Shown: positions 1,593 to 54,848 of the stretch, in pieces
How the letters are laid out: the number at the start of each line of letters is the position of its first letter
Numbering within the stretch: position 1 is the stretch's first letter
Origin: a virus
Virus record (IMG/VR): IMGVR_UViG_3300048029_000697
Span: 1-54,848 of that record
DNA: 54,848 bases
Strand: one strand, 5' to 3'
Translations under genes and position numbers: made by a program
Notes under the pieces: model-generated
Databases searched by the model: none
The model's input: the letters and a program-made list of their open reading frames with translations, nothing else
What the model was told of the DNA's origin: nothing

Positions 1593-1605
1593 ATTATACA
1601 CTTAA
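1593..1605 (-). promoter_or_regulatory. Late-type promoter element for the leftward appendage genes
   Basis: Read leftward the sequence is TTAAGTGTATAAT, one of the two best copies of the recurrent AGTGTAWWAT element. It ends 13 bases before the ATG at 1579. No TTGACA-like -35 box lies at the usual distance. It sits back to back with the rightward copy at 1612-1625. Confidence 0.5.
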
Positions 1606-8270: not shown

Positions 8271-8283
8271 TTTAGTGTATAAT
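8271..8283 (+). promoter_or_regulatory. Late-type promoter element before the tape measure gene
   Basis: TTTAGTGTATAAT, together with the copy at 1593-1605 the closest to consensus. It starts just after the upstream stop (8268) and lies 25 bases before the ATG at 8309. The leader contains AAGGAATAAGG, a possible ribosome-binding site. No -35 box was seen. Confidence 0.5.
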
Positions 8284-38782: not shown

Positions 38783-40680
38783 AATTCGAATTGTATTTTA
38801 TCTTTTCCATTGTGAATGTAATTTAACATTTTTTGAGTTCCAATAAAAGGAAGAAAAGCTATCTCAAAAAAACCTTTATGGTTACCTTGTCCTTCCATGG
38901 CCGGTAAGCTATCTAAAGATTTACTGTAAGGAATTACTTTATGAATATAAGGGTTTCCGTCTAATATTTCAAAGTATTCAGGCTTTGTTGCATAATAAAT
39001 ATTATAGTTTGGGTATAGTTCTTTTATATTTTTCAATAAAGATGTAGACATGTAGATATCTCCTATACTTTGAGGCATTGAAAATAAAATTCTATTTCCT
39101 TCGTCTTCTTTATCTAAAATATCAGTAAAATCTATTTTTTCCTGCTTTTTGTTTTCTTTTTTAGCTACTTGTTGAAAATGTTGTAATACTCCGTCTCTAT
39201 CCATATCGGTGGATAGTCTATTCTTCCAGTGTTTAAATCCATCATCTGATTCGTTTACGTCTAATTGTAATATATTTTTATATATATCTTTTATAAAGTC
39301 GTCGTCGTTTTTTATTTCAGGTGGAATATAGTTTGGGTTTTTTTCAATAGGTTTAAAATCATAATCCCAATTTACTTCAGGCATGTTATCTATGATAGAT
39401 TCTAATTTTTTACCTATAGCCTCTATACTATAGTTTTTTATTACAAAGTCGCGAGCTTGTTCACCTAGAAGTTTGAGTTTAGAGTCTTTCATGCTGTAAA
39501 CTTTTTTTAACTGACTTGCGATACTTTCTGGATTTGTACTAGCCTTGATAAACTGAGTGCCTGGCTCTCTATATTCTGACCAACTAAGAGGTAGTCCAGC
39601 ACTATCCTCTGTGCAGCAATCTTCACCACAACTATAATTAGTTACTAAAGTTACAAGCTCTACAAGTTTCGCCTCCTGTATGGGTATTTCTTGACCTCCG
39701 CTGGTAAAAGGATGACAATAAACATTCATCAGGTTGTAAATCTCATTAAGCTGTTCTTCAGTAACTCCAAGCCTAGTGTTTGGGGTTACTTGGGTTTTCT
39801 CTGCACCACATAAACCGCAATCTTTCTTTTCTTCTTCGTAAGGTTTGATTTCAAAATTTTTGCAATGCGCACAAACATATGTTGTTAAAACGTTTTTAGG
39901 GTTTATACCCTTTTCTTTTATCAATCTAGGTATATCCCAACCTTCCTTCCAATGAGTATGTAATAATAATTTAGCCGAACATTCTGGATTTTTTTCGCAA
40001 AATATTTTGTAACCCTCTAGTAAATTTGGAACGCTTTTCCTTAACTGATTTCTAAAAACAAATCCAATAATAAAATCATCTTTATCTATTTTAAGTCTTG
40101 ATCTTAATTTAAGTTTTTCATCGCTTTTAAATTTGAAAAAATTAGTGGTGTCTATAGCTCCATGTAATGTGTCTACATGTTTATGTCCTAATCTATTTAA
40201 TTCTTTAGATGCAAAAGATGACCAGGTGTAATAGTTTTTTATTTTGTTAGCATTCTTGACCGCTTCGGGTAATATAGGTAAACTGTCTAAAGTAGTCCAT
40301 ATCATACAGTTTATATTATTCCACCATTTTTTATCGGTATATCCAGAGAAAGCCCATATGTCTTCAATGCCTATGTAAGCATCAGGCTTTTCCCTTTCTA
40401 TGATTTTATCAATAGTTTGACCTCCATAACCAGCATTTCTAGCTAGAGCTTGATCTTGATTCATTTTCTGTAAAGTGACTGGGTCACTCGGTAGAGAACC
40501 TTCGGTTTTCCATGGTAATAGTTTTAAAGAAGGATCTCCCCATCTCATTCCATTAGAGAACTCAACTAAATCATACTTACCTGTTTTATGTAAATGTAGT
40601 AATATATTTTTAGTATTTTTTCCAAAGCCTGTATAAGCTTTACAGTGATTACTATGAATTAATACCTTTTTCCTCTTCAT
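38773..40680 (-). CDS. GT4 glycosyltransferase with zinc ribbon, DUF4214-like and GT9 N-terminal segments
   Basis: 635 residues, a mosaic. Residues 1-435 are GT4/GT-B-like (HSNHCKAYTGFGKNTKNILL near the N-terminus; SRLKIDKDDFIIGFVFRNQL; HPFTSGGQEIPIQEAKLVEL as the nucleotide-sugar site). A four-cysteine ribbon is inserted at 270-291 (CAHC, then CGLC). About 459-510 resembles DUF4214 (FIKDIYKNILQLD, then GFKHWKNRLS), often linked to glycan enzymes. From 528 to the end is a GT9-type N-terminal Rossmann start (ILFSMPQSIGDIYMSTSLLK, IYYATKPEYFEILDGNPYIH) that stops short; the rest of GT9 is in the next gene. The start overlaps the upstream stop (TAATG). Confidence 0.75.
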   Translation of the reverse strand: MKRKKVLIHSNHCKAYTGFGKNTKNILLHLHKTGKYDLVEFSNGMRWGDPSLKLLPWKTEGSLPSDPVTLQKMNQDQALARNAGYGGQTIDKIIEREKPDAYIGIEDIWAFSGYTDKKWWNNINCMIWTTLDSLPILPEAVKNANKIKNYYTWSSFASKELNRLGHKHVDTLHGAIDTTNFFKFKSDEKLKLRSRLKIDKDDFIIGFVFRNQLRKSVPNLLEGYKIFCEKNPECSAKLLLHTHWKEGWDIPRLIKEKGINPKNVLTTYVCAHCKNFEIKPYEEEKKDCGLCGAEKTQVTPNTRLGVTEEQLNEIYNLMNVYCHPFTSGGQEIPIQEAKLVELVTLVTNYSCGEDCCTEDSAGLPLSWSEYREPGTQFIKASTNPESIASQLKKVYSMKDSKLKLLGEQARDFVIKNYSIEAIGKKLESIIDNMPEVNWDYDFKPIEKNPNYIPPEIKNDDDFIKDIYKNILQLDVNESDDGFKHWKNRLSTDMDRDGVLQHFQQVAKKENKKQEKIDFTDILDKEDEGNRILFSMPQSIGDIYMSTSLLKNIKELYPNYNIYYATKPEYFEILDGNPYIHKVIPYSKSLDSLPAMEGQGNHKGFFEIAFLPFIGTQKMLNYIHNGKDKIQFELCT

Positions 40681-41249
40681 TAAAAAGGCGCTTGTTCGCT
40701 ATCTTTTGATGATTGATTTTGACTACCTCCGCCCTTAGATTCTTTTAGTCTTTTAATCTCTTCTCTTCTTCTGTGTTTATATAGTTCAGAAAGGTAAAAA
40801 GAGAAAAATTCAAGAAGGTTTTCTACTTCTCCAGGCTCTAATGGTATCCTGAAAGTCTGATTCCCGTTTCTGGTAACATTAATTCCAAATGCCGGGATTA
40901 CTATCCACTCCTCTTTATCTCCTTGTTTGACTTTAGTTTTTTTATCCCAGGGAGTACATTTAATTGATGTTTTGTTTTCTTCGAACGCGTGAAATGTAGA
41001 AAACTCATTTCTATTCTTAAAAGAACTAATTATTCCGCCGATTTCAAATTCTGTAAATTTAAGGTTAATTCTTTTATCTGGATCACTACCGTTTCCAGAG
41101 AAGTTGCCGGTTTTTTTTCTATCGTCCCAGCTGTATTGTTGAATTGCGCTAGCGTAAATTACCGGCTCTTTTACTTTGTTTACGCCAATTTTGAAATTAA
41201 AGGCGCACCCTGTGTTTTTACTGTTTGGTTTATAAAGTGAAATGCTCAT
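40680..41249 (-). CDS. Single-stranded-DNA-binding-like protein with SSB-type acidic C-terminus
   Basis: 189 residues. The body is beta-rich (YASAIQQYSWDDRKK, GNFSGNGSDPDKRINLKFTE, EIGGIISSFKNRNEFSTFHA, TSIKCTPWD), a pattern I associate with small PC4/Whirly-like or other phage ssDNA-binding proteins, followed by a helix (ENLLEFFSFYLSELYKHRRR) and a disordered tail ending SKDSEQAPF. The terminal acidic-Pro-Phe resembles the protein-docking tip of bacterial SSB. The gene has its own sigma70-like promoter (41258-41285) inside the glycosyltransferase operon, and its start codon lies in a hairpin of the read-through transcript. It may act with the annealing protein at 36805. A classical SSB is also present at 50468. 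Confidence 0.5.
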   Translation of the reverse strand: MSISLYKPNSKNTGCAFNFKIGVNKVKEPVIYASAIQQYSWDDRKKTGNFSGNGSDPDKRINLKFTEFEIGGIISSFKNRNEFSTFHAFEENKTSIKCTPWDKKTKVKQGDKEEWIVIPAFGINVTRNGNQTFRIPLEPGEVENLLEFFSFYLSELYKHRRREEIKRLKESKGGGSQNQSSKDSEQAPF

Positions 41250-41270
41250 GATAAAAGATTATATATCATG
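41247..41270 (-). other. Hairpin covering the start codon of the SSB-like gene
   Basis: Arms CATGATA (41247-41253) and TATCATG (41264-41270) form a perfect 7-bp stem with a 10-base loop. On the leftward transcript the ATG at 41249 lies in the 3' arm, and the loop corresponds to the -10 region of the local promoter. Transcripts reading through from 48850 would contain it; those from the local promoter would not. Confidence 0.4.
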
Positions 41271-41285
41271 AATTATTTTTGTCTA
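41258..41285 (-). promoter_or_regulatory. Sigma70-type promoter for the SSB-like gene
   Basis: Leftward TAGACA (rc of 41280-41285), 16-base spacer, TATAAT (rc of 41258-41263), then 8 bases to the ATG at 41249. Transcription would start at or just before the start codon. No AGTG lies upstream of the -10, so it belongs to the sigma70 class. Confidence 0.55.
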
Positions 41286-41294
41286 GTATTTATT

Positions 41295-42176
41295 TCACCT
41301 AGTATTTATGTCTATAGAATTTATATCATGACACCAATCTTCTTCGCTGTATAACTCATCATATTTCCTATAGCTAGAGGTCCATATATGTTTAGGTAAA
41401 TTTTTTATTCTAACTATATCGAAGTGTTTTTTCATTAACTCTATAGATTTATTATCTGTTGCTGATTCTTGTTTTTTTAGATGAGGATCCCAATAACTAT
41501 TAATGATCGCTTTGCAAATAAGTTGCTCAGGGAATCTAGTTAATTCTTGTTGGCAATACGCTGTGGAAAGTTTGAAAGACTCAAGCATCCTGGATTTTAT
41601 TCCTCCTATAATATGGTCTGATGGATGAAATTTATTTTGCCAATCATATCTAAAATAAATATTAGATGTAACTATTTTATAGTGATTGTATAATCCTGTT
41701 TCGCTATTTTTAGTATCTCTATTATCTCTTAGCTTATTTAAAAATGGATCTAAGACTGGATAGCTTTCGTCCGAGCGAACTTTAATACAAAAGTATTTAG
41801 ACGCAGCTTTTATTCCATTTAATGTAGTATAATTTTGATAAACCCAAGGAGCCTGACTGCCTGTTTTTCTTTTTTTTATATTTATATTGGAATATTTATT
41901 TATTACTAGTTTTATTTTATCTTTGTATTTTTCAAGCTTGGAAAGATCATCCGTTTCCCAGCAGCTAACTATGACTTCGCCATAGTTTAAATATTCTGGA
42001 ATAGTATTAATTGATCGTTCATTTAAAGGCCCTTGTATTATAATAGAAAAGGTGTCTGTAAACTCCTCCATTGACCGAAGGTAGTTTTTTAAAAATTTAT
42101 AACGTATTCTTTGCTCTAACGATAAATGTTCGTTATGGCTTAAGTAATTTAAAAAATGGTCATCAGATAATTTCAC
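41295..42176 (-). CDS. WavE-like lipopolysaccharide glycosyltransferase
   Basis: 293 residues. The segment TFSIIIQGPLNERSINTIPE followed by YLNYGEVIVSCWET is characteristic of the WavE family of LPS core biosynthesis, and CIKVRSDESYPVLDPFLNKL gives the R-S-D metal/donor site of the GT-A-like fold. C-terminal EQLICKAIINSYWD and HFDIVRIKNLP also fit. No signal peptide was seen, so a cytoplasmic enzyme. It overlaps the gene upstream by 4 bases. An 11-base direct repeat (CTAGTATTTAT, at 41283 and 41299) straddles its stop codon. The precise donor and acceptor sugars cannot be read. Confidence 0.75.
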   Translation of the reverse strand: MKLSDDHFLNYLSHNEHLSLEQRIRYKFLKNYLRSMEEFTDTFSIIIQGPLNERSINTIPEYLNYGEVIVSCWETDDLSKLEKYKDKIKLVINKYSNINIKKRKTGSQAPWVYQNYTTLNGIKAASKYFCIKVRSDESYPVLDPFLNKLRDNRDTKNSETGLYNHYKIVTSNIYFRYDWQNKFHPSDHIIGGIKSRMLESFKLSTAYCQQELTRFPEQLICKAIINSYWDPHLKKQESATDNKSIELMKKHFDIVRIKNLPKHIWTSSYRKYDELYSEEDWCHDINSIDINTR

Positions 42177-42595
42177 TTTAAATAATCAGAACACAAACCA
42201 AAACAAATCGGACCTGCATATTCTCTAGCGTCATCTACTACTAAAATACTTTTATTACAGACATGTTTTCCGGGGTAAGTCCATATGAAATTTTTAGAAG
42301 TTAGTGTGTGGTCGTCGTTTTGATGCCAAAAATAATTCAAAACTTTAAACTCAGATAATATATCTATAGCCATTAAGTTTTTGCAATGAATCCATAATTT
42401 TTGATAATTATTAATAAGGAAACTAACAGAGCATTTATATTGAGGTTTGTCATGACCAAGCCATAATTCTTTATCCCCCCATATATCTACCTCTACATCG
42501 TAACCTTTAGAAAGAGCTTCTTTTATATAGTCCGGATGATTCTCTCTTTCTGGGATTGGCCCAGAAATATTTCCTCTATGAGATACTAATATCAT
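42173..42595 (-). CDS. Short glycerophosphodiester-phosphodiesterase-like protein
   Basis: 140 residues, about half a usual GDPD barrel. The N-terminus has the family signature: SHRGN, then ENHPDYIKEALSKGYDVEVD with the paired acidic residues of the metal site, then WLGHDKP matching the HD motif. The C-terminal half of the barrel appears shortened, ending CFGLCSDYLK. It overlaps the downstream WavE-like gene by 4 bases and the upstream HAD-nucleotidyltransferase gene by 20. The role would be hydrolysis of a phosphodiester in a glycan or lipid precursor. It could also be a catalytically altered relative. Confidence 0.65.
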   Translation of the reverse strand: MILVSHRGNISGPIPERENHPDYIKEALSKGYDVEVDIWGDKELWLGHDKPQYKCSVSFLINNYQKLWIHCKNLMAIDILSEFKVLNYFWHQNDDHTLTSKNFIWTYPGKHVCNKSILVVDDAREYAGPICFGLCSDYLK

Positions 42596-43952
42596 GTTTT
42601 AAAAATGTATCTAAATCTTCTGGAGTGCCTAATCCCCACATTTTATCAATATGAAATGTTTTTACTCTAGCACCTTCAAGTAAGGCTTCGTTATAAACGG
42701 GGCATACATAAAATTCATTATTGACTCTAATATTTTTCTTAATCATACTTTCTGCGCATCTAATATAATCTGCACCCTTTTTAAAAAAATAAATTCCTAC
42801 TGTTGCGTGTTCGCTAATAGGTTTCTTTTCTGCAACCTCTGTGACAAATCCATCTTCATTTAATTTTGCATAACTCCATTTTGGGTGAGTGGAATGAAAT
42901 GTTAGTATAGATCCATCTATATCATCAGCCATAGATGAGTACATAAATTGATTACTATCCCATTTTACATATTGATCTGAATTTGCAAGAACAAGCGGTT
43001 CATTATTATCTATGAATTCTTTTGCTAGTAAAGTTGTACATGCAGCGCCTTCTGTCATACCCTCGACTTGTACTATTTCGCAATTTGGGGATATTAAATT
43101 TAAAGTGTGTTGTAATGAATATTTTTCGTAATGAGATTTTTGTACAATGAATATATGCCTTGCATCTATATTTAAGTTTTCAACAACTCTTTGAATCATA
43201 GGTTTTCCATTAACATCAATAAGAGGTTTGGGAAAGGTATATCCGGCCTGCTCGAATCTTGAGCCAGCTCCCGCCATTGGTATTAGTACGTTCATTTTAT
43301 CTCCTTGCCATTTTGGTGAAATTTTAGATCGCTGTTCTGCGCTAATTATAGTATGATTTAGTTTGGTAAATGTCAAGTCTTTAGAGTTTTTAACAGCGCA
43401 CAAATAACCTCCGCTCCTTATTGCGCCTTTCCTGCCTATATGAGAATCTTCAATTATTACTGTTTCATCTGGATTAACTCCGCACTTCAACATGCATCTC
43501 ATGTAAATCTCGGCATTAGGTTTTGGGTTATTTACATCTTCATTAGAATATAAAAAATCTATGTAATCAAAAAAACCTTTTCTTATTAACATTAATTTTG
43601 AAGTCTCTCTTATTGAATTTGTTGCGCATGCAATTTTGTAGTTTTGTGATTTTAATTTTTTAAGAATATCTATTATTCTGTAGTCGGGTTTATATTCATC
43701 TATTTCTTGTAGAGTTTTTTGTTGTTTGAGTTCCCATACCCTGTTGTGGTATTTTTCTGGAAGATTTTTTTCGGCGGTTAACTTTTTTAATTTTTGAGTT
43801 GTTGTTAATGCGTCATACTTACAAAGATGCTCTTCTTTGCTAATTGTATATTGATCACCTATTTCAGCGAGAGCTTTGTTCAGAGCAATGAAATGTAATT
43901 CGCGCGACTCAACTAATACTCCGTCTAAATCAAATATAATTAATTTAATCAT
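42576..43952 (-). CDS. HAD phosphatase - sugar nucleotidyltransferase fusion with internal start
   Basis: 458 residues. Residues 1-200 are a HAD hydrolase of the beta-phosphoglucomutase type (IIFDLDGVLVES, nucleophile D8 and acid D10; CATNSIRETSKL as motif II; later NPKPNAEIY and VIIEDSHIGRKGA). Residues 220-458 are a GT-A-type nucleotidyltransferase (LIPMAGAGSRFEQAG, FPKPLIDVNGKPMIQRV, NSDQYVKW as the metal site, WGLGTPEDLDTF). An AAGGAG Shine-Dalgarno (43301-43306) lies 5 bases before internal ATG 43295, so the transferase alone (239 residues) is probably also made. Together they would dephosphorylate and activate a sugar for the neighbouring transferases. Confidence 0.85.
   Translation of the reverse strand: MIKLIIFDLDGVLVESRELHFIALNKALAEIGDQYTISKEEHLCKYDALTTTQKLKKLTAEKNLPEKYHNRVWELKQQKTLQEIDEYKPDYRIIDILKKLKSQNYKIACATNSIRETSKLMLIRKGFFDYIDFLYSNEDVNNPKPNAEIYMRCMLKCGVNPDETVIIEDSHIGRKGAIRSGGYLCAVKNSKDLTFTKLNHTIISAEQRSKISPKWQGDKMNVLIPMAGAGSRFEQAGYTFPKPLIDVNGKPMIQRVVENLNIDARHIFIVQKSHYEKYSLQHTLNLISPNCEIVQVEGMTEGAACTTLLAKEFIDNNEPLVLANSDQYVKWDSNQFMYSSMADDIDGSILTFHSTHPKWSYAKLNEDGFVTEVAEKKPISEHATVGIYFFKKGADYIRCAESMIKKNIRVNNEFYVCPVYNEALLEGARVKTFHIDKMWGLGTPEDLDTFLKHDISIS
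43301..43306 (-). promoter_or_regulatory. Internal Shine-Dalgarno site within the HAD-nucleotidyltransferase gene
   Basis: Leftward AAGGAG, 5-base spacer ATAAA, then ATG at 43295, exactly at the first residue of the nucleotidyltransferase domain (Met220 of the long protein). This position and quality suggest a real second translation start. Confidence 0.65.
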
Positions 43953-43953
43953 G

Positions 43954-44568
43954 TCAAATATCTGAAACTAAAGTTAATCCTAAATATTTTTTTTCGTAAC
44001 CCCCTATCTCTTTGTTGCCATAAAATTGATATTCAAAGTTTAAGTTATAAGGTTCTAGGTTTAAGTTGTGTTTGCACGCATTTTCATGTTTTGATTTTAA
44101 ATGTTGGTTCGGAAGATTAAAGCTCGTAACTATTAACCATTTTGTTTTACTTTTTTTAAGTAAGTTGAAAAATTTTAATATATCGTCGTGATCTAAGTGG
44201 ATTAATACATCTCTGCATATAAATAAATCAGAACGAGGTATATTATCGTGGCATATGTCTAATTGTTGAAATGTTATGTTAGTTGATTTCATAGAATTAG
44301 GTATAATATTTAGACAAAATTTACATACATCTACCCCTAAGTAATGCCCTTTATATTTTTCTAAAAATTTATGTTGCCATGCAAAATCTCCACAGACATC
44401 AACTATGGATTTTATTTTTTTCTCTGAGATTATTTTTGATATAAATTTAGAGTCATTATTAGTAAATGCATGACTAGAACCTCTTCCTGACAATGTATTT
44501 CCATGTCGACCCCATGCTCTTCTATCGTAAATATTTTCAAAATGACTTCTTATTTGATTTTTATCCAT
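43954..44568 (-). CDS. Class I SAM-dependent methyltransferase
   Basis: 204 residues. A Rossmann motif I is visible at about 54-64 (SIVDVCGDFAWQHKFL), followed by the acidic end of strand 2 (GHYLGVDVCKF), a motif-II-like QQLDICHDNIP and SDLFICRDVLIHLDHDDILK. N-terminal FENIYDRRAWGRHGNTLSGR is seen in methyltransferases of glycan clusters. It lies one base from the HAD-nucleotidyltransferase gene and one base from the upstream transferase gene, so co-translated. A likely role is methylation of a sugar of the glycan made by this operon; other small-molecule targets cannot be excluded. Confidence 0.7.
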   Translation of the reverse strand: MDKNQIRSHFENIYDRRAWGRHGNTLSGRGSSHAFTNNDSKFISKIISEKKIKSIVDVCGDFAWQHKFLEKYKGHYLGVDVCKFCLNIIPNSMKSTNITFQQLDICHDNIPRSDLFICRDVLIHLDHDDILKFFNLLKKSKTKWLIVTSFNLPNQHLKSKHENACKHNLNLEPYNLNFEYQFYGNKEIGGYEKKYLGLTLVSDI

Positions 44569-44569
44569 T

Positions 44570-45250
44570 TTACATTTCTATCCAATTATTATCTAAGTAT
44601 ATGTAGTCTTCTGTTTCAGGGAAAAGTTCTATATGCTCTTTGGTTTTCCCGATTGGTATATAGCCAGGCTGAGGTTCTGAATGTATCAGAATTTTTTTAG
44701 TATACTTAAGTATTTTGGGTACAAAATGATTAGTTAAAAAAAACTCATCCGCGCCGTATATTGTTTTATCCCCTTCGTACTCATTTATAAGTTCTGACGT
44801 TGAGAAAGGAGGTTTTTTTGACGATATACAACCAGCCATATAATATCTAGGTTCTTTTTTATTGTATAAAGCTAATCTATCGTGAGCAAACCATATACAT
44901 TCTGACATATAATCTTTTTTCATCCAGTCGTTAATACAAAAAATATCGTTTTCCTGCATTGGGAAATCTAGATCCCTGCAAACTGTTACATCTGCATCAT
45001 CAAAAGCTAAAAACCTCCAAAAACAACCTTCTCTACCTTTAGAGGTCGGCATTTCTATAAGCTCAGTGTTTTGCATTAATTTTAAACGACTAATAATATC
45101 TTTTGGAGCTGTATTATCGTAATACATCCTAAACTTCCAGTCAGGCATGAAATCATAAACGAATCTAGCATTCCTTATTGAACCTAAAGCATATTTGCGA
45201 TAAGATATAGCTCTATTACCAAAAAGACAGGTGGATATTACTTTTTTCAT
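44570..45250 (-). CDS. GT-A-type glycosyltransferase-like protein
   Basis: 226 residues. YRKYALGSIRNARFVYDFMP near the N-terminus, then FRMYYDNTAP and a VTVCRDLDFPMQENDI region with the D-x-D metal motif (CRDLD), and GADEFFLTNHFVPKIL near the C-terminus, together match the layout of GT-A enzymes found in viral and bacterial glycan clusters. The start overlaps the stop of the GT7-like gene upstream by one base. No membrane segment. The sugar is unknown. Confidence 0.6.
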   Translation of the reverse strand: MKKVISTCLFGNRAISYRKYALGSIRNARFVYDFMPDWKFRMYYDNTAPKDIISRLKLMQNTELIEMPTSKGREGCFWRFLAFDDADVTVCRDLDFPMQENDIFCINDWMKKDYMSECIWFAHDRLALYNKKEPRYYMAGCISSKKPPFSTSELINEYEGDKTIYGADEFFLTNHFVPKILKYTKKILIHSEPQPGYIPIGKTKEHIELFPETEDYIYLDNNWIEM

Positions 45251-45924
45251 TATATATCTACGGATAAGAATCTTATATTATTTTTAATCGTCTCCGATTT
45301 AATTAACGAGTATTTTAGATTATTTAGTCCTGATTTTTTTATATGGTTTATTTTTAGATTTTCATTTTTTTTAGAAAATATGTAATTTTCTTCTTCTGAA
45401 ATTTTTTTCTTCTCTCCTGTATAAATTTCGTTGGATTTTATGTGGGGTAATTCTTGTATTAGCCTCTTGTAGTCATCATGATTGTTTTGCGAAATAGAGA
45501 ATTTATTAAAAATATATCTATTATACAGAGCTCTATCCTCTATCCCCCAACCCCATATGTGATTAGGAAAGCCATTGCATTTCAAGAAGCTTTCGCTGGA
45601 GAATTTACAAATACCTCCTAATGAAGAGTCGTGAGCACTAAATATTCTTAATGCGTCAAATTTCTCTACAGTATATACATTTTTAATTAATTCTTCTTCT
45701 GGTATTAGGTCTACATCATGGGTAAATATAAAATTAGAATTAAGTCTTTCTTTGAATCCTATATTTAGAAGCTTGCCTCTATTAAATTTTTTGTTATTCT
45801 CTTGATTAACTATTATGATTTCTACATTATTTAGATAAGTTTCAAATTGTTTCATACAATTATTCAATAGAAAATTAAGATGATCAAATCTATTTCTAAA
45901 TGGTATTATTATCGATGTCTTCAC
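45250..45924 (-). CDS. Galactosyltransferase-like GT7 (C-terminal domain type) enzyme
   Basis: 224 residues. It starts with a GT-A nucleotide-sugar fold (TSIIIPFRNRFDHLNFLL), has the HDVD metal site (FIFTHDVDLIPEEE) and the GT7 C-terminal signature GGICKFSSESFLKCNGFPNH followed by IWGWGIEDRALYNR. This is the beta-1,4-galactosyltransferase-like family, known from animals and from bacterial and phage surface-glycan clusters. The ATG overlaps the upstream stop by 4 bases. The C-terminal 60 residues are Lys/Asn-rich and lie outside the fold. Confidence 0.8.
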   Translation of the reverse strand: MKTSIIIPFRNRFDHLNFLLNNCMKQFETYLNNVEIIIVNQENNKKFNRGKLLNIGFKERLNSNFIFTHDVDLIPEEELIKNVYTVEKFDALRIFSAHDSSLGGICKFSSESFLKCNGFPNHIWGWGIEDRALYNRYIFNKFSISQNNHDDYKRLIQELPHIKSNEIYTGEKKKISEEENYIFSKKNENLKINHIKKSGLNNLKYSLIKSETIKNNIRFLSVDI

Positions 45925-46823
45925 TTTAAGTATTTATTTTTTGCGTGAGTTCTGATTTCATTAAATACGTTTTCGTTCCAAACGAATTTATTTTCGAATT
46001 TATCGTAAACTTCTTGATTCAGCCAACTGTCTAGCTTGAAGTTTTTAGGGTTACTATGTTCCCCTATTTCACCTATATACTTAAAGTTATTTGTCAAAGT
46101 AGATATTTTTATCATACCTCTTGCTGCAAAAGCCGCTGAAGTACAAGAGTCTTGACTTGATACTATTTTATTAGGGTCAGCTCCTATTGACGACATCAAA
46201 TCCAAGATTTCTTTATGAGGTCTGAACCTATATTCTTCAGGTAGTAGATTCCAGTATTTTTCAAGAATGTCATATATTTTCTCGTAAGAGGATTTTCTCA
46301 TTGCATATGCCCACAAGTGGTCCATTAATACTAGCTTATCTTTATTATCTTCTTGCATTTTTATAGGTAATCTGTCGTCGCTATCGTGCAGGTAATTTAT
46401 GTAGGAATATTTATATGATTTTTTAGATCTATGATGCTCACCAAAACAATTGATCATTGCGATTCTTTCGTCATCTCTGAATTTTTCAATTAAAAAATCT
46501 AATTGCTGTATATAGTGTGGAGCTAAAACTGAATCGTCTTCTATTAAAATCAAGAAATCGTTATCTTTAAAAACTAATTCTCTTGCGTATTTCATTATCC
46601 TAGCTACTCCCTGATTTGATTTAGCAATAAATGTTTCACAGTGAGGTATCATCTCTTTTGATAATTCAAAAGATTTCTTGACCAAATCTACATCTTCTTT
46701 GAATCTAGGCCCATCTACAACGCAATATACTTTTCTATCCCAGCACTGGCTTGATACTGAATGTAATACCTTCTTGAAGTATTCTGGCCTATTATATGCA
46801 GTGAGAACTATTGGCGTCTTCAT
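45921..46823 (-). CDS. GT-A glycosyltransferase (GT2/GT13-like)
   Basis: 300 residues. The N-terminus TPIVLTAYNRPEYFKKVLHS is a typical GT-A start; SNQGVARIMKYARELVF and FLILIEDDSVLAPHYIQQLD give the acceptor helix and the E-D-D metal motif, as in N-acetylglucosaminyltransferase-I-like proteins. A second half (HLWAYAMRKSSYEKIYDILE) probably binds the acceptor. It overlaps the genes on both sides by 4 bases. The gene is inside a run of five overlapping or abutting transferase genes, consistent with stepwise building of one oligosaccharide. Confidence 0.7.
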   Translation of the reverse strand: MKTPIVLTAYNRPEYFKKVLHSVSSQCWDRKVYCVVDGPRFKEDVDLVKKSFELSKEMIPHCETFIAKSNQGVARIMKYARELVFKDNDFLILIEDDSVLAPHYIQQLDFLIEKFRDDERIAMINCFGEHHRSKKSYKYSYINYLHDSDDRLPIKMQEDNKDKLVLMDHLWAYAMRKSSYEKIYDILEKYWNLLPEEYRFRPHKEILDLMSSIGADPNKIVSSQDSCTSAAFAARGMIKISTLTNNFKYIGEIGEHSNPKNFKLDSWLNQEVYDKFENKFVWNENVFNEIRTHAKNKYLK

Positions 46824-47593
46824 TGACTAATGATAGAGTTATGACCTTTATTTCTCCACTTTTTTCCATCCTTGCATAAAATTGTATTTATATTTCCAAA
46901 AGAATTTGTTCCTGTTAACTGTTTGTATTTGCAGTTCTGCATATTTAAACATATAGTTATTACTGATTCAGGGACCTTGATCATGTATTCCGGATATCCT
47001 TCATTCCAAAGAATGTTAATTGCATTAACGTAATAATCTAAACAATTCATATATTTTTTAATTTCATCAGGAGGTCCTATCGCGAATTGGTCATTGATTT
47101 GATTTGGTAGCGAGGCTTTGTCGTATACAAAACTAAAACTAAACTCTTTTTTTATCTCTTCTTCATGGTTGTAAATATTATCACTTTCAAATAAAGGTAA
47201 TCTTATGAATTTATTTTTAATACAATCTTTTATTTCATGTTTTTTAATTTCCTCTAATATTTGAATATCTGGCCTTAGTCTGATTACTAGATCATATTTA
47301 GTTTTTTGATTACAAAATAAATTATAAACAGCTTTCATATTAAAGAGCATCGGTAGTAAGCCTTTGCTTGGTTTTACTGGGTGTTTATGTGAATCAAATA
47401 GCTTTAGGTCTTCACTTCCCGTAATTGCAAACTTTTTAGGTTTATAGTGATTATAGAAATCCGGGTAATTCTCTGTACTCCATGTGGTAAAAAAGATGTC
47501 AGGCTTTAAGGGTTTTATAATATATTCAGTGATAGACTCAGAACATTCTGCCCAGTCTCCTAATTTTCCACTAAAAAGTAATGCTGTTTTCAT
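46820..47593 (-). CDS. Putative glycosyltransferase, GT-A-like
   Basis: 257 residues. The start MKTALLFSGKLGDWAECSES and the segments DIFFTTWSTENYPDFY and TKYDLVIRLRPDIQILEEIK resemble a group of virus- and LPS-cluster-encoded transferases in which the R-P-D stretch takes the place of DxD. FAIGPPDEIKKYMNCLDYYV in the second half fits acceptor recognition. It overlaps both neighbours by 4 bases. No specificity can be assigned, and the family identification is by pattern only. Confidence 0.55.
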   Translation of the reverse strand: MKTALLFSGKLGDWAECSESITEYIIKPLKPDIFFTTWSTENYPDFYNHYKPKKFAITGSEDLKLFDSHKHPVKPSKGLLPMLFNMKAVYNLFCNQKTKYDLVIRLRPDIQILEEIKKHEIKDCIKNKFIRLPLFESDNIYNHEEEIKKEFSFSFVYDKASLPNQINDQFAIGPPDEIKKYMNCLDYYVNAINILWNEGYPEYMIKVPESVITICLNMQNCKYKQLTGTNSFGNINTILCKDGKKWRNKGHNSIISQ

Positions 47594-48543
47594 TCTGTTA
47601 TATATTCCGTTATGTCTCTCTGAGCAACTAAACTCTCAATGTCATCAAGTAGGAATGGGTAAAGTTTATAAGCTGGGTTTACGAGCATATTTTTAATTAT
47701 CTGACTTGCGCTACTAACGTCATAATGTAAGGGGAAGACATATCTTTCATTAAATAACCACCTGATTAAATAAGAATATTGAACGGTTCCATATTTTTGA
47801 CAATATTTTGAGAAAGTAAATGTAGGTTTACCAAAATGATACGGAATGTATCGTATTCCCGAGTCAATACCAAACATAGCTGTACATTTACTTGCTAAAT
47901 AAAATATTTGCCTTAAATCTGCGTGAATTAAATGTAATTTAGGATTTTTTGATCCCAAGAAATCTTTATATTTATGCTTTGAGTCATTATCGTAAAGAAT
48001 TATTAAATTAAAATCTTTTGTTACGTCATTGATTAACCTCTTGATATACCAATCCTCCATATTCGAGTCTGCATTATCTCTTGCATAAAGATGAGCTAAA
48101 ATAAATTTCTTAAAAGGTAACTCTATATTTTGAGTTAAGTTGGTGGTAGGTCTTGGGAATACATTAAAATATTTAAACCAATCGTAATCGTGATTTAACC
48201 AATCTAGAGAATCGATATGCAAATCGTAGAACTTATCATAAACTCCTTTCATTAATTTTATATCGTTAGGTGGCACATTTTTGATTGACCCTCTATAATC
48301 TTCTTCTGGAAAATTTGATGATTTTATTCGAAAATTTTTATATTTCTTTTTTTCTAAAACAAAAACATCATTAAAATGGTCTGGCCATATTTCTCTAAGT
48401 ATGTCTGACTGTATTGAGTTGCCTTCTGTATCTGACCATAAGTCTATTTTACATCCAGGGTGATATTCCTTGATAGCAGGTATGAATCTATTGGCGGCGA
48501 AATGATCACCTAGGCCTCCCTCCATTCTAACAGATATCTTCAT
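47590..48543 (-). CDS. Heptosyltransferase-like (GT9/GT-B) glycosyltransferase
   Basis: 317 residues. The N-terminus VRMEGGLGDHFAANRFIPAI followed by KEYHPGCKIDLWSD is a GT9-type start (G-G-L-G-D). The C-terminal half has FILAHLYARDNADSNMEDWY, LIILYDNDSKH and CTAMFGIDSGIRYIPYHFGK, equivalent to the nucleotide-sugar site of ADP-heptose transferases. A good Shine-Dalgarno (AAGGGAG, 5 bases before ATG 48543) lies inside the end of the upstream regulator gene, which it overlaps by 17 bases. Confidence 0.7.
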   Translation of the reverse strand: MKISVRMEGGLGDHFAANRFIPAIKEYHPGCKIDLWSDTEGNSIQSDILREIWPDHFNDVFVLEKKKYKNFRIKSSNFPEEDYRGSIKNVPPNDIKLMKGVYDKFYDLHIDSLDWLNHDYDWFKYFNVFPRPTTNLTQNIELPFKKFILAHLYARDNADSNMEDWYIKRLINDVTKDFNLIILYDNDSKHKYKDFLGSKNPKLHLIHADLRQIFYLASKCTAMFGIDSGIRYIPYHFGKPTFTFSKYCQKYGTVQYSYLIRWLFNERYVFPLHYDVSSASQIIKNMLVNPAYKLYPFLLDDIESLVAQRDITEYITE

Positions 48544-48850
48544 GCTGTCTCCCTTTGATTAGGATATTTTTGGAATTTACTACAACAGTCTTCAGTTGTG
48601 TCATTGTATTCCCTGCTGTTTTTTTTCTTAAAATATGTTTGGCCTTATGAAGCCTATTTAGGCTTGCTGATATTTTACCATAAGACATACCACCCAATTC
48701 ACCAGCTATCTTGTTGTTGGAAAAATATATGGGTTTACCGTGCCCTGCCTTATCGACAAGATAAGAATAAACAACTAGATCGTTGCCAATTAAATTTCCC
48801 GAAATAATATCTTCTTGGATAGCTAATGGTATTTGGATGAATTTTTTCAT
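48527..48850 (-). CDS. Winged-helix DNA-binding protein, likely operon regulator
   Basis: 107 residues. About 20-85 reads as a winged helix: DLVVYSYLVDKAGHGKPIYF, then SNNKIAGELGGMSYGKISAS and LNRLHKAKHILRKK (recognition helix and wing), as in MarR- or replication-initiator-like domains. First gene of the leftward operon. The sigma70-type promoter upstream leaves only 7 bases before ATG, so the transcript is probably leaderless. By position next to a divergent promoter pair with a candidate palindromic operator, it may switch leftward and rightward early transcription. Whether it represses or activates is unknown. Confidence 0.65.
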   Translation of the reverse strand: MKKFIQIPLAIQEDIISGNLIGNDLVVYSYLVDKAGHGKPIYFSNNKIAGELGGMSYGKISASLNRLHKAKHILRKKTAGNTMTQLKTVVVNSKNILIKGRQHEDIC

Positions 48851-48857
48851 TCGGTAG

Positions 48858-48886
48858 ATCTTAAACTAATTAACGACTTTTGTCAA
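48858..48886 (-). promoter_or_regulatory. Strong sigma70-type promoter of the leftward early operon
   Basis: Leftward TTGACA (rc of 48881-48886), 17-base spacer, TAAGAT (rc of 48858-48863), then 7 bases to ATG 48850. The predicted start of transcription is at the start codon, give or take a base. Confidence 0.8.
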
Positions 48887-48988: not shown

Positions 48989-49017
48989 TTGACTTTTACT
49001 GAATTATCATCTATACT
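48989..49017 (+). promoter_or_regulatory. Strong sigma70-type promoter of the rightward early operon
   Basis: TTGACT (48989-48994), 17-base spacer, TATACT (49012-49017), then 6 bases to ATG 49024. The predicted transcription start coincides with the A of the start codon, so the first gene would be translated from a leaderless mRNA. No Shine-Dalgarno site precedes this ATG. Confidence 0.8.
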
Positions 49018-49023
49018 TGTTCT

Positions 49024-49335
49024 ATGGAAAATATTATAGACCTAGCTAAAGAAAAGTGTTTCATAATTAAATGCTCAGATTGGAATATAGTCCTATCTGC
49101 GGAATCAGAAACAGAGGCATGTACTAAAGCATTAATTAATATGCTAGCTGAAAGAGGTAAGGATTTAAAGTTATCATCAGTTATGGTTTCATCTAAAATA
49201 ACCAAAGACTTTATACCAAACGAAGTAGATGATGATTTTAATGAAGTAACTAGCTATCATTCGGTTTCTAGGATGTTAGCTAATGCAGGTTTTCATGATT
49301 TATCAGTTAAAGTTAGGAATATTTTCGGAGCATGA
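49024..49335 (+). CDS. Small acidic early phage protein, unknown function
   Basis: 103 residues, first gene of the rightward operon. The N-terminus MENIIDLAKEKCFIIKCSDW, followed by VLSAESETEACTKALINMLA and LKLSSVMVSSKI, resembles small proteins I have seen in marine phages, but no function is attached to them. The alpha-beta layout suggests a small regulatory or host-takeover protein. The start at 49024 is supported by the promoter geometry (leaderless). It overlaps the kinase gene by 4 bases (ATGA). Confidence 0.65.
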   Translation: MENIIDLAKEKCFIIKCSDWNIVLSAESETEACTKALINMLAERGKDLKLSSVMVSSKITKDFIPNEVDDDFNEVTSYHSVSRMLANAGFHDLSVKVRNIFGA

Positions 49336-49877
49336 ATATCATAGGAATATCAGGATTAGCTAGGTCAGGGAAAGATACTTTATATTCTTTATTAGCGAAA
49401 AAGTTAAAAGACGAAGGGCTCTCGTCAACTAGAATAGCATTCGCAGATGAATTAAAAGAAGAATGTAATGATTTCTTGTTTAAGAATGTAGGAATATCAG
49501 CATTCACAGAGAAAAATTCCGAAAAGGAAATCATTAGACCTTTCTTGGTTTGTTACGGATCAAAGGTAAGACGAAGGCTTAATGAAAACTGCTGGATAGA
49601 AAAAGTTTCCCATAGACTTAAACAGATAAATGGAGTAAATTACGCATTCATTACTGACGTAAGATACGAAAACGAAATAAATTGGGTTAAATCAAAACAA
49701 GGTAAAACCATTCATATATCAAGAGAAGGAAATATAGCTCCAAACGAAGAGGAGTTGAATAACAATCCCAAATTAATTAAAGCTTCTCAATATAAATATG
49801 AGTGGAAAAATTTCGAAGAAGTAGATAATCTATATATACAAAACAAAATTAACCAAATATATAATGAACTTTTTTAA
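49332..49877 (+). CDS. Deoxynucleoside monophosphate kinase
   Basis: 181 residues. The P-loop GLARSGKDT (residues 8-16) with preceding MNIIGIS, followed by RIAFADELKEECNDF (acceptor-binding LID/NMP region) and FITDVRYENEINWVKSKQGK near the C-terminus, matches phage dNMP kinases such as T4 gp1. It phosphorylates dNMPs to dNDPs for phage DNA synthesis in the cytoplasm. The gene overlaps its upstream neighbour by 4 bases and the sigma-like gene by 14, so it is co-transcribed with the replication and regulatory genes. Confidence 0.85.
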   Translation: MNIIGISGLARSGKDTLYSLLAKKLKDEGLSSTRIAFADELKEECNDFLFKNVGISAFTEKNSEKEIIRPFLVCYGSKVRRRLNENCWIEKVSHRLKQINGVNYAFITDVRYENEINWVKSKQGKTIHISREGNIAPNEEELNNNPKLIKASQYKYEWKNFEEVDNLYIQNKINQIYNELF

Positions 49878-50475
49878 TAATCACACAGACCTAGAGCTTA
49901 TTAATAATATCAAAAATAGAACTGATATTGAGGCTAGTTTAAATGAATTAGTAGAAAGACATAGTGGAATATATATTGATATGGTTAATGCTTACTCAAC
50001 GAAGGATAATCCATTTATAGACAAAGAAGACTTAATCAACGATAAGGAATATAAAATTTTCTCCGCAGCACTAAAGTATGATGAAAGTAAAGGTGCGAAA
50101 TTTAGTACGTATCTAGGAAACGAAACTAAATGGAATTGCTTAAATACTTACAACAAAAACAAGAGGCGTCCAGTATTTCAATCAGAATATATAGAGAATA
50201 TGTCAGATCAAGAATCTAAGGAATCTAACGATATCGCCAATTCAATCAAAAAAGATATTTTCAATAAAGTTCTTAACCTTATAGGTTCCCACCCAGATAA
50301 AAGAGTCGAAAAAATATTTAACATGAGATACATAGAAGGAAATAAAAACAAAGTAATGCCTTGGAAAAATATAGGAGATTCATTAAATCTGAGTATCCAA
50401 GGATGCATTAATATACATAACTCAGCAATAAAAGACATACAAAACGAACTGAAAGGAGAATTTAATTTTGAATAG
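49864..50475 (+). CDS. Phage sigma-factor-like protein (sigma70 regions 2 and 4)
   Basis: 203 residues. Region 2: helices from about 22 (IEASLNELVERHSGIYIDMV, KEDLINDKEYKIFSAAL) leading to KYDESKGAKFSTYL (71-84) and NETKWNCLN, the hallmark 2.2-2.3 segment of sigma70-family proteins. Region 4 (about 143-196): VEKIFNMRYIEGN, then WKNIGDSLNLSIQGCINIHN, a helix-turn-helix able to contact promoter DNA. Region 3 is lacking, as in small alternative sigmas. The gene is early and follows a host-type promoter. Structural genes carry a distinct AGTGTAWWAT element without -35, so this protein is the natural candidate for a late sigma. The DNA specificity is inference. Confidence 0.75.
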   Translation: MNFFNNHTDLELINNIKNRTDIEASLNELVERHSGIYIDMVNAYSTKDNPFIDKEDLINDKEYKIFSAALKYDESKGAKFSTYLGNETKWNCLNTYNKNKRRPVFQSEYIENMSDQESKESNDIANSIKKDIFNKVLNLIGSHPDKRVEKIFNMRYIEGNKNKVMPWKNIGDSLNLSIQGCINIHNSAIKDIQNELKGEFNFE

Positions 50476-50851
50476 ATTTATAGGATTAGGTAACTTAACA
50501 AAAGATCCAGAGGTAAAAGAAACTAAAACCGGAAAGAAGGTTTGCGTATTCACTATAGCCATAAATAACAGGCCATCAGATAATGTTCTATATATGGACG
50601 TAGAGGCATGGAATAAAACTGCGGATAATTGCGCAAAATTTCTTAGTAAAGGCAGGAAAGTAATGGTAGACGGAAGGCTTCACTTAAATTCATGGAAAAA
50701 CTCAGAAGGGCAAACTAGAAACAAAATTTTCTGCATTGCAGATATAGTTACTTTTTTAAGTGGAAATAATGAGAGTTCTAACGATAATCATTCAGAAAAA
50801 GAAAACGACACACGAGAAGAAGACGACGAATTCTCAGATATCCCTTTTTAA
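50468..50851 (+). CDS. ssb: Single-stranded DNA-binding protein, TTG start
   Basis: 127 residues from TTG 50468, with AAGGAG 9 bases upstream; no ATG exists at the conserved N-terminus. FIGLGNLTKDPEVKETKTGK, then VCVFTIAINNRP, VEAWNKTADNCAKFLSKGRK and VMVDGRLHLNSW give the OB fold of bacterial SSB. The C-terminus is acidic and ends DDEFSDIPF, the partner-docking tip. It protects ssDNA during replication and recombination. Overlaps the sigma-like gene by 8 bases and shares one base with the transferase gene downstream. A second, unrelated ssDNA-binding candidate is at 40680. Confidence 0.95.
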   Translation: MNRFIGLGNLTKDPEVKETKTGKKVCVFTIAINNRPSDNVLYMDVEAWNKTADNCAKFLSKGRKVMVDGRLHLNSWKNSEGQTRNKIFCIADIVTFLSGNNESSNDNHSEKENDTREEDDEFSDIPF

Positions 50852-52271: not shown

Positions 52272-54167
52272 ATGCCTAACGAAGATTATAAAAACAATCC
52301 GTTATACACAGATATAACGAATCTTGACTCCCTTTCACCTACCCCTACATTTTCATATAATTGGAATTCAGAAAGCGGTAGGTGGGAACCTGCAGGGGCT
52401 GTTAATATTGAAAGTATTGATATTTCTGGAGACCTTAACATTGATCTAGGTCCAACTAATGAAATTTTAAATACCTTATCATCCAAAACTCAAGGAATTC
52501 ATGATTTAATTTCCTTAGAAACGAACCATATATTATCAGGAGTAACCTCAGGGTTGTCTAATATACATGAAACACAGGTAGATAACTCTAGGAGCACAAA
52601 TAATTTACTGGAGTTAATTAATGAAAATTTATCCGGTATACAAATAGACGTTTCTATAGACAGCGATGTTGAGACTCATAGATTACTTTCTGGAGTATCA
52701 GGAGAACTTTCTAATCTCGATACTGAAGATATTGAGACTCATAGATTACTTTCTGGAATATCAGGAGAACTTTCTAATCTCGATACTGAAGATATTGAGA
52801 CTCATAGATTACTTTCTGGAGTATCAGGAGAACTTTCTAATCTCGATACTGAAGATATTGAGACTCATAGATTACTTTCTGGAATATCAGGAGAACTTTC
52901 TAATCTCGATACTGAAGATATTGAGACCCATAGATTACTTTCTGGAATATCAGGAGAACTTTCTAATCTCGATACTGAAGATATTGAGGCTCATAGATTA
53001 CTTTCTGGAATATCGGGAGAGCTTTCTGATCTTGATGTAGAAGCTATAGTCGATCTTTCTGAAACTAATAGGCTTCTCTCAGGAATATCAGGAGAATTAA
53101 CTGAACTAGAAGTTAGTTTAGATAGTTTTGAAACCAATAGGCTTCTCTCAGGAATATCAGGAGAACTGACCGAACTAGAAGTTAGTTTAGATAGTTTCGA
53201 AACCAATAGGCTTCTCTCAGGAATATCAGGAGAACTGACCGAACTAGAAGTTAGTTTAGATAGTTTTGAAACCAATAGGCTTCTCTCAGGAATATCAGGA
53301 GAATTAGCTGAACTAGAAGTTAGTTTAGATAACTCAGAAGGTAATAGATTACTATCTGGAATATCAGGAGAACTTTCTGAATTAGATATAGAAGATCAAG
53401 AATCCCACAGATTACTCTCAGGGATATCTGGAGAATTGGAAAAATTAAACCTGGGAGTAGATAAAGAAAATCATAGGTTACTTTCAGGAATATCTGGTGA
53501 ATTAGTAGACATTTATCAACAAATAGGCAGAAGAGAGTTATATCAGCCCTGGAAACTAAGAACGAAAACAGTTTCTCAAAAAATAGATGAAGATTTCATT
53601 CTTATGGAAAACATCCCTGAAGAATTAAGATATGGAATATTTTCTGGAGAGTGTTTTGGGCAAGATAAACATTTAATGGATGATGTTTTTGGAAATTATT
53701 TCTCAAATGGAAGATTAAATAAAAGTATGCTTGAAACAGGACACCCAGATTATTTTATACAATCGGAATATACTGATCCCAATAGATGTAGCCAGTCCTA
53801 TGCAACCTTCCACAGCGATACTCTATTTGGCTTACGACAAGAAAATGTATCAGCTAGTTTAATCAACTCCTACGAATTAAATGATATAAATAATTTATAC
53901 GAAAGAGGCTTGGTTGACCACGTTATAATATATAACGAATCACCTTACCCAATACAATTTCACACTGCAGAAAGAAGATTAAATAATTCTGAGCCAGTGT
54001 CTCCTAAAATAGATGATATAGTATACCTAGAATCAGATATGGCTGTTAAAATTGATAGCGATGAAGTAGGAAGAATTTTCATCAAAAGGCCTCACACCAT
54101 ATCAGGTTTCACAGTAAAATATTCTATAGTTTACAAAGAGACGGGCTTATACGATAATTTTGAGTAA
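52272..54167 (+). CDS. Repeat-rich fibre-like structural protein
   Basis: 631 residues. About 30-60 is a short beta-like segment (WNSESGRWEPAGAVNIESID). Residues 134-240 hold five near-identical 21-residue repeats (ETHRLLSGISGELSNLDTED plus I) and a degenerate sixth, then 264-355 four 23-residue repeats (ETNRLLSGISGELTELEVSL plus DSF), then more diverged copies to about 415. 21 residues is three heptads, so a coiled-coil or other fibrous shaft is likely. The C-terminal 210 residues are a globular domain (YQPWKLRTKTVSQKIDEDFI, SGECFGQDKHLMDDVFGNYF, HVIIYNESPYPIQFHT), unrecognised. Likely a head or tail fibre. Three bases... two intervening bases separate it from the next repeat protein. Confidence 0.6.
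   Translation: MPNEDYKNNPLYTDITNLDSLSPTPTFSYNWNSESGRWEPAGAVNIESIDISGDLNIDLGPTNEILNTLSSKTQGIHDLISLETNHILSGVTSGLSNIHETQVDNSRSTNNLLELINENLSGIQIDVSIDSDVETHRLLSGVSGELSNLDTEDIETHRLLSGISGELSNLDTEDIETHRLLSGVSGELSNLDTEDIETHRLLSGISGELSNLDTEDIETHRLLSGISGELSNLDTEDIEAHRLLSGISGELSDLDVEAIVDLSETNRLLSGISGELTELEVSLDSFETNRLLSGISGELTELEVSLDSFETNRLLSGISGELTELEVSLDSFETNRLLSGISGELAELEVSLDNSEGNRLLSGISGELSELDIEDQESHRLLSGISGELEKLNLGVDKENHRLLSGISGELVDIYQQIGRRELYQPWKLRTKTVSQKIDEDFILMENIPEELRYGIFSGECFGQDKHLMDDVFGNYFSNGRLNKSMLETGHPDYFIQSEYTDPNRCSQSYATFHSDTLFGLRQENVSASLINSYELNDINNLYERGLVDHVIIYNESPYPIQFHTAERRLNNSEPVSPKIDDIVYLESDMAVKIDSDEVGRIFIKRPHTISGFTVKYSIVYKETGLYDNFE
52671..52985 (+). repeat. Five tandem 63-bp repeats (21 residues each)
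   Basis: Copies begin at 52671, 52734, 52797, 52860 and 52923 with GAGAC[TC]CATAGATTAC, differing by only a few bases (for example GGAGTATCAGG against GGAATATCAGG). A sixth, more diverged copy starts at 52986 (GAGGCTCATAGATTAC). They code for the fibre shaft. Confidence 0.95.
53061..53336 (+). repeat. Four tandem 69-bp repeats (23 residues each)
   Basis: Copies begin at 53061, 53130, 53199 and 53268 with GAAAC[TC]AATAGGCTTCTC. The core RLLSGISGEL is shared with the 63-bp repeats, so the two arrays are diverged forms of one unit with a 6-bp length change. Confidence 0.93.
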
Positions 54168-54169
54168 TT

Positions 54170-54848
54170 ATGGATTTCTTCGAAATAAAGAAGCCTATAA
54201 GAAGGGTTGGTCTAGACCAATATATCATAGGTAATAATACTACTGATCCATTAATAAAAATAGATGGTCCAACTATGACCATGGATGAGTTGACCGTAAG
54301 AAAACTTAATGTAGATCTCGCAGAGTTTGATATTATAGACGGAGACATACAAAGAACAGTAAGCGGTTTTATAGACTACGCTGAAATTAAAAATCTAGAG
54401 CTATCTACAGGATTATTCTCTGAACTGTCTGGAGTAAACTTCATTACTGAATCAGGATTGATTCAGAATCTAGAGCTATCTACAGGATTATTCTCCGAAC
54501 TATCTGGAGTAAACTTCATTACTGAATCAGGATTGATTCAGAATCTAGAGCTATCTACAGGATTATTCTCCGAACTATCTGGAGTGAACTTCATTACTGA
54601 ATCAGGATTGATTCAGAATCTAGAGCTATCTACAGGATTATTCTCTGAACTGTCTGGAACAAACTTCATTACTGAATCAGGATTGATTCAGAATCTAGAG
54701 CTATCTACAGGATTATTCTCTGAACTATCTGGAGTAAACTTCATTACTGAATCAGGATTGATTCAGAATCTAGAGCTATCTACAGGATTATTCTCCGAAC
54801 TATCTGGAGTAAACTTCATTACTGAATCAGGATTGATTCAGAATCTAG
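54170..54848 (+). CDS. Second repeat-rich fibre-like protein, N-terminal part (runs off the right edge)
   Basis: 226 codons are visible from ATG 54170, two bases after the stop of the previous gene, and remain open to the window end. Residues 1-73 are unique (MDFFEIKKPIRRVGLDQYII, TMTMDELTVRKLNVDLAEFD), then from about residue 75 a 25-residue unit repeats (NLELSTGLFSELSGV with NFITESGLIQ). The unit L-S-[GT]-G-x-x-x-E-L resembles the LLSGISGEL unit of the preceding protein. Probably another fibre shaft; full length and C-terminus are outside the window. Confidence 0.75.
   Translation, partial: MDFFEIKKPIRRVGLDQYIIGNNTTDPLIKIDGPTMTMDELTVRKLNVDLAEFDIIDGDIQRTVSGFIDYAEIKNLELSTGLFSELSGVNFITESGLIQNLELSTGLFSELSGVNFITESGLIQNLELSTGLFSELSGVNFITESGLIQNLELSTGLFSELSGTNFITESGLIQNLELSTGLFSELSGVNFITESGLIQNLELSTGLFSELSGVNFITESGLIQNL
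54392..54848 (+). repeat. Six tandem 75-bp repeats and the start of a seventh
   Basis: Copies begin at 54392, 54467, 54542, 54617, 54692 and 54767 (AATCTAGAGCTATCTACAGG), with the seventh cut at the window end. Divergence is only a few bases per copy (CTCTGAACTGTCT against CTCCGAACTATCT; one copy reads GGAACAAAC for GGAGTAAAC), so the array is recent or kept uniform by recombination. Confidence 0.95.

Follow-up and report, generated by a model that had tools for sequence, protein, structure and literature searches.

The question raised by this locus is how the late genes of an uncultured phage come to be transcribed, and whether a small protein encoded among its nucleotide and replication genes could be the factor that opens them. 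The DNA analysed, here called the window, spans a virus record of 54,848 bases. Tail genes are plentiful in it and include those for a tape measure protein (2,349 aa), for minor tail proteins and for a J-like protein of the central fibre. The protein in question, hereafter sigma-A, is encoded by an intact open reading frame in an operon that also holds the genes for a deoxynucleoside monophosphate kinase (dNMP kinase) and a single-strand DNA-binding protein (SSB). The original prediction was of an early-to-late switch, in which sigma-A is made from a host-type promoter and then directs transcription from a non-host element in front of structural genes. The features on which the argument draws are collected in Table 1.

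Table 1. Predicted features of the window and, in the last eight rows, sigma-like open reading frames (ORFs) of related contigs (contig name before the colon).
Feature	Position	Strand	Remarks
Late box AGTGTAT	1596..1602	-	23 nt before gene 161-1579
Late box GGTGTAA	1616..1622	+	15 nt before gene 1631-2764
Late box AGTGTAA	6111..6117	-	15 nt before gene 5635-6102
Late box AGTGTAT	8274..8280	+	35 nt before tape measure gene 8309-15358
Late box AGTGTAA	22617..22623	+	25 nt before central tail fibre J-like gene 22642-27816
Divergent host-type promoter, TTGACA-17-TAAGAT	48858..48886	-	Leftward operon starting at 48850
Host-type promoter of sigma operon, TTGACT-17-TATACT	48989..49017	+	Ends 6 nt before ATG at 49024
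Sigma operon gene 1, function not assigned	49024..49335	+	
dNMP kinase	49332..49877	+	Precedes sigma-A gene; phrog_139, E=6e-29
Predicted phage sigma factor (sigma-A)	49864..50475	+	203 aa; region 2 about 9-101, region 4 about 119-200; profiles, model, Foldseek
SSB	50468..50851	+	Follows sigma-A gene; phrog_44, E=1e-32
Late box AGTGTAA	52256..52262	+	16 nt before repeat protein gene 52272-54167
Sigma-B ORF	L210:7260-8045	+	
Sigma-B ORF	G007:12926-13714		
Sigma-B ORF	G001:130215-130958		
Third sigma-like ORF	G003:122350-122895		
Third sigma-like ORF	G052:23256-23441		
Third sigma-like ORF	G012:7869-8033		
Third sigma-like ORF	G053:60254-60454		
Third sigma-like ORF	G006:14466-14654		

Sigma-A as a sigma factor

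The likeness to sigma region 2 that had been read from the protein is borne out by the profile search proposed as its check. On its own, sigma-A matches two PHROG sigma families (phrog_351, E=2e-6; phrog_1740, E=8e-6) with partial coverage of the profiles, both values lying below the cut-off for family membership of 1e-3. Against the Pfam family Sigma70_r2 the single sequence is sub-threshold (E=0.035), and the same family is matched by 21 of 66 relatives of sigma-A, at best with 1.5e-6; relatives among IMG/VR candidates number 199. A profile made from the 66 relatives matches sigma factors in the PDB at 5e-5, and finds nothing but sigma factors among its 60 best matches. These best matches are mostly primary sigmas, together with one chain of an engineered ECF region 2 (1e-4), so the closest sequence relationship is not to the ECF families and sigma-A is not filed as a member of them.

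The architecture of the protein is apparent from its AlphaFold model (pLDDT 87), in which two helical domains, residues 9-101 and 119-200, are separated by a disordered linker. Regions 2 and 4 are thus joined by a short linker with nothing between them, and since the intervening domain is absent sigma-A lacks region 3. This is the layout of the ECF (group 4) factors, which have regions 2 and 4 only, without 1.1 or 3. In a Foldseek search of the PDB with the model the matches listed are sigma chains, and in a viral structure library nearly all the named matches are phage sigma factors. The full-length TM-scores are low, about 0.3-0.4 in the PDB, which a variable arrangement of the two domains would explain. 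Region 4 gives a weak match by sequence and is recognised from the structure and a conserved segment, the invariant LSIQGCINIHN, which falls in the predicted helix-turn-helix; the region-4-like element without region 3 had been anticipated in the original prediction. Residues invariant in the family include K79, T82, N86, C92 and L93 in region 2, and S177 and QGCINIHN (179-186) in the second helix-turn-helix. Taken together, profiles and model indicate that sigma-A is a two-domain phage sigma factor with an ECF-type layout, a candidate for binding core RNA polymerase and directing initiation.

Host-type promoters and the early genes

The operon of sigma-A is preceded by the host-type promoter that had been predicted for it. 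When the region is scanned with the consensus alone, the overall number of sites is not significant (23, with 17.5 expected), and support for the host-type promoters comes instead from the quality of the matches, their position and their conservation in relatives. Among the relatives, 39 loci have a resolved promoter upstream of sigma-A, and the first one found is host-type in 38 of them, the remaining locus having both types; with the strict promoter pattern none is resolved in a further 43 loci, about half. Across the clade, promoters of the form TTGAC-N16-18-TANWWT mostly end 6-8 nt before the start codon, most often at 6. The genes that follow TTGACA promoters match ribonucleotide reductase, primase, helicase, DNA methyltransferase and rIIA/rIIB in a scan that took one representative per family from nine contigs, including the window. 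Within the window, a long leftward run of genes on the minus strand (37628-48543), several of them glycosyltransferase- or sugar-nucleotide-like, also lies behind a host-type promoter.

A single box before the late genes

The second element of the proposed switch emerges from a count of 7-mers, made at 83 related loci over the 70 nt that precede each gene. The word that leads the count is GTGTAAT, which occurs 64 times, with 4 occurrences in the reverse-strand control and none in the coding control; it is followed by words that overlap it, and TTGACAA, also enriched, ranks below them. Exact-word enrichment was adopted in place of an EM motif search with a wide matrix, which drifted to A-rich sequence. 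When the bases of AGTGTAAT are tested one by one, GTGTA proves largely necessary, while the first position takes A, T or G and the last T or A. The AGTG-type motif first noticed in the window is a real element whose core is better read as NGTGTAAT.

In the window itself, the 60 nt before genes contain six [ATG]GTGTA[AT] sites where 0.37 would be expected (P=3e-6), and over its whole length the motif is rarer than chance (19 found, 31.8 expected). Structural genes therefore do carry a single-box element distinct from the host type, as had been claimed, and across whole contigs the box is in about 4- to 14-fold excess upstream of genes. Tandem coding repeats of 63, 69 and 75 bases are found in the window at 52665-53374 and 54392-54848; the proteins concerned, which follow a late box and are possibly fibres or adhesins, contain HRLLSGISGELS-type segments repeated in the same way.

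The distance of the box from the start codon, counted from the first base of NGTGTAA and with gene starts set by a simple longest-ORF rule, is strikingly fixed, with a mode of 15, most sites at 15-20 and none at 14; the usual range is 15-18 nt. A box at 14-20 is carried by 103 of 1382 genes in the loci around the sigma gene (reverse strand, 4), by 80 of 1251 in eight larger contigs (reverse strand, 2) and by 101 of 905 in the terminase loci (reverse strand, 1). Pooled, and with the first two sets overlapping in part, this amounts to 284 of 3,538 clade genes, about 8%, against 7 in the reverse-strand control. In the sigma loci alone, the genes with a box in the 60 nt before them fall into 43 protein clusters. 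The spaced box is absent from the 470 genes of eight other phages, at least three of which (S-CBWM1, Slash and phiEco32) carry annotated sigma factors. It had been suggested that gene and motif should co-vary among related phages. The largely fragmentary records allow only a coarse comparison, with outgroups, from which the box is absent; of the two results named as refuting, lack of sigma similarity and relatives with the motif but without the gene, neither appeared. Within the clade the box is the same in near and distant sigma-A clades, so that true co-variation is not seen.

In the same scan of gene families, the boxed genes match protease, minor tail, sheath, tail, virion structural, holin and PhoH families, with a few other matches, such as a kinase and an endonuclease. 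Judged by these assignments, the box and the TTGACA promoters divide the genes into the expected late and early sets. No -35 element is seen over 182 spaced box sites, so that, by computation, the element is a single-box promoter without a -35 sequence, as in the phiEco32 gp36 family; region 4 is nevertheless conserved in sigma-A. A T4-like TATAAATA box is moderately enriched in the clade (57 against 12), but it is thinly spread over loci and may reflect A/T-rich sequence of the host -10 kind. When a further promoter class was sought among genes with neither motif, only words resembling the host -10 box peaked (TATAAT, at 11-14 nt from the start codon).

A second sigma-like protein and the order of the promoters

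A search of the contigs with Sigma70_r2 brought to light a second sigma-like ORF, sigma-B, which encodes about 225-280 aa with a Cys-rich insert, lies some 2.7 kb upstream of the large terminase gene and is conserved across terminase-bearing contigs. Its profile does not align with sigma-A, and a search of annotated phages found no relative. The model of sigma-B is moderate (pLDDT 67) and gives a weak match to ECF sigma chains. Some contigs also have a third, small ECF-like sigma ORF of about 170-186 aa, which has the strongest Sigma70_r2 scores. Of the 15 loci with a resolved promoter upstream of sigma-B, 14 have a GTGTAAT box as the first one found and the remaining one has both types; 14 further loci are without a resolved promoter. 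The two sigma genes thus stand behind opposite promoters (Fisher 6e-13, which is indicative only, as related loci are not independent).

This order provides the strongest argument for sigma-A as the reader of the box. As sigma-B itself lies behind the box, the box must first be opened by a product made earlier, for which sigma-A is the candidate. The arrangement fits a cascade that leads from host sigma to sigma-A, and from sigma-A to the late genes together with sigma-B. The main rival of sigma-A as box reader is sigma-B, which might be the principal reader of GTGTAAT, alone or in positive feedback, leaving sigma-A to serve another early or middle class or only to start the loop. Sigma-B is kept next to terminase, inside the late region, and is ECF-like by fold, though only in a moderate model; against this, an operon that lies behind GTGTAAT boxes rather than host promoters could not start the switch, and no other promoter class was found for sigma-A to read. 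We regard this alternative as unlikely. Sigma-B may, however, share or maintain activity at the box, and here the original prediction needs qualifying: the order of promoters favours sigma-A as the early-to-late switch, but not as the sole reader, since sigma-B could share or take over the role.

A host alternative sigma could also read the box, with sigma-A acting elsewhere, for example on host genes. One report describes phage-borne sigmas with an action on host dormancy (PMC9429907). The box and the sigma gene nonetheless both run through one phage clade, and phages that conserve their own sigma would not need an alternative one from the host; moreover, sigma-A lies among nucleotide and replication genes, as does gp36 in phiEco32, where a dNMP kinase gene is two genes away. 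A host factor as box reader is therefore very improbable. A search for RNA polymerases of T7 type, confined to that type and made without a positive control, found none.

The course of events that we consider probable begins with host RNA polymerase and host sigma, which would make sigma-A early from TTGACA/TATAAT promoters, alongside the nucleotide and replication genes. Sigma-A would then join the host core polymerase and guide it to the single-box promoters, where the box would occupy the -10 position and a -35 sequence would not be needed. Transcription would begin at the AUG or a few bases off, giving leaderless mRNAs for virion, packaging and lysis genes, and among the late genes switched on would be that of sigma-B, beside terminase. 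Such a scheme would give a common group of uncultured phages a concrete switch from early to late genes, with a promoter code open to testing, and would add a new phage sigma and promoter pair in which one box, about eight bases long, makes up the promoter. The pair could serve as a compact orthogonal part for gene expression.

Promoter spacing and predicted leaderless messages

With sigma70, transcription normally starts about 7 nt after the -10 box. Since most host-type -10 boxes of the clade leave 6-8 nt between their end and the start codon, transcription of the early genes is expected to begin at the AUG; GTGTAAT stands in the same position relative to the start codon. In phiEco32 the gp36 box precedes mapped start sites by 6-8 nt (PMC4281155), a distance which, applied to GTGTAAT, places +1 on or next to the AUG. 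The start codon is ATG in 265 of the 284 genes of the boxed class. From this spacing, many early and late mRNAs of the clade are predicted to be leaderless or nearly so.

The near-fixed distance could also be taken to mean that GTGTAAT acts in translation instead of transcription, as a ribosome-binding or leader element of an unusual kind. Such a signal would have to be reconciled with a box that is present at only about 8% of genes, is absent at closely packed genes within operons, and has no evident complementarity to the anti-Shine-Dalgarno sequence. The spacing, too, is sometimes 23-60 nt, and a Shine-Dalgarno-like sequence is then commoner (8/24 and 19/47, as against 5/182, a difference that is partly by construction). 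Host -10 boxes, furthermore, show the same spacing as GTGTAAT, and a translation signal is hardly credible.

With the box taken as a promoter, a more far-reaching version can be framed, in which much of the program of this widespread clade runs on leaderless mRNAs, early host-type and late phage-sigma promoters alike set the transcription start on or beside the AUG, promoter and start codon form one compact unit, and two sigma factors act in series, sigma-A reading NGTGTAAT and turning on sigma-B. This version is put forward tentatively, the balance leaning slightly against it. Were the spacing to mean what it appears to mean, late genes would be translated from leaderless mRNAs, which would inform on translation in the host, and start codons in genomes of the clade would become easier to annotate.

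Distribution of the clade

Sigma-A and the box belong to a large uncultured group of mostly marine phages, a group without a close annotated relative in the collections searched. Compared with one reference, the terminases of sigma-bearing contigs show 56-88% identity, and annotated phages reach only 22-28% among the matches listed. At least 584 terminase stretches of the clade are confirmed, on contigs of up to 203 kb. Sigma-A and terminase are both present in all four contigs of at least 180 kb; most records with terminase relatives are fragments of 33-126 kb, too short to span the distance from terminase to sigma-A, so that its absence from these smaller contigs is uninformative. An actinobacterial host was considered as an idea and found no support; WhiB was absent in the search made for host assignment. 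Two sigma-A-bearing contigs (PBIO01000001.1 and CAJQQA010000103.1) lie in metagenome-assembled genomes named Halobacteriovorax and Flavobacteriales, and are possibly stray phage contigs rather than evidence of a host.

Comparison with known phage systems

The original prediction recognised neither the size of the protein nor its motif in any known phage sigma. Sigma-A has no detectable sequence relation to phiEco32 gp36 (hhalign probability 0.1; no BLASTP match) and aligns with T4 gp55 no better than chance. The switch is less unprecedented than it seemed, since gp36, with its homologue in phage 7-11, is a close functional precedent, indeed the closest: a phage ECF-type sigma for middle and late genes. 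This small protein acts after host-type early transcription on a single box, tAATGTATAtA (PMC4281155, PMC4331800, PMC5333181), and phage ECF promoters have no recognisable -35 (PMC5333181). The gp36 box and that of the clade have TGTA in common, and a dNMP kinase gene lies near the sigma gene in both systems. Unlike phiEco32, the clade has a different box, late messages that are predicted to be leaderless, and a second sigma in the late region. A search of the open-access literature, incomplete in coverage, found nothing on the sigma-A family or its box.

By profile and by fold, the nearest known relatives of sigma-A appear to be the sigma factors of Synechococcus phage S-CBWM1 and, more weakly, those of T4-like cyanophages. 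S-CBWM1 gp055 aligns with the sigma-A profile over both domains (E=4e-7) and the sigma of the T4-like cyanophage S-N03 over region 2 only (E=2e-4), while the window protein alone reaches only E=5e-3 in the phage collection; both kinds are among the best named viral structural neighbours. A search of IMG/VR for relatives of gp055 returned only S-CBWM1 itself, whose terminase is not close to those of the clade. S-CBWM1 has a box of its own, GGTAAAAT, further from the start codon than GTGTAAT is in the clade. This box is strong ahead of some 25-30 genes and is probably a late promoter of that phage. The difference would fit a sigma and its box diverging together between clades, though S-CBWM1 also has two sigmas.

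T4 gp55 is a phage sigma that works on the host polymerase at a single late box with no -35; it has no region 4 and depends on gp33 together with the sliding clamp. Sigma-A would work like gp55 in outline, but has a region-4-like domain and a box other than the TATAAATA of T4. In the SPO1-type cascade (gp28, then gp33/gp34) phage sigmas succeed one another, as is proposed here for the clade. SPO1 promoters have two elements. Bacillus phage Slash likewise has two annotated sigmas, one upstream of terminase and one near thymidylate synthase, and is without the spaced GTGTAAT box (0/60 genes). In Microcystis phage MaeS, GTTATAAT words are repeated upstream of and between genes, and are possibly another promoter or operator box.
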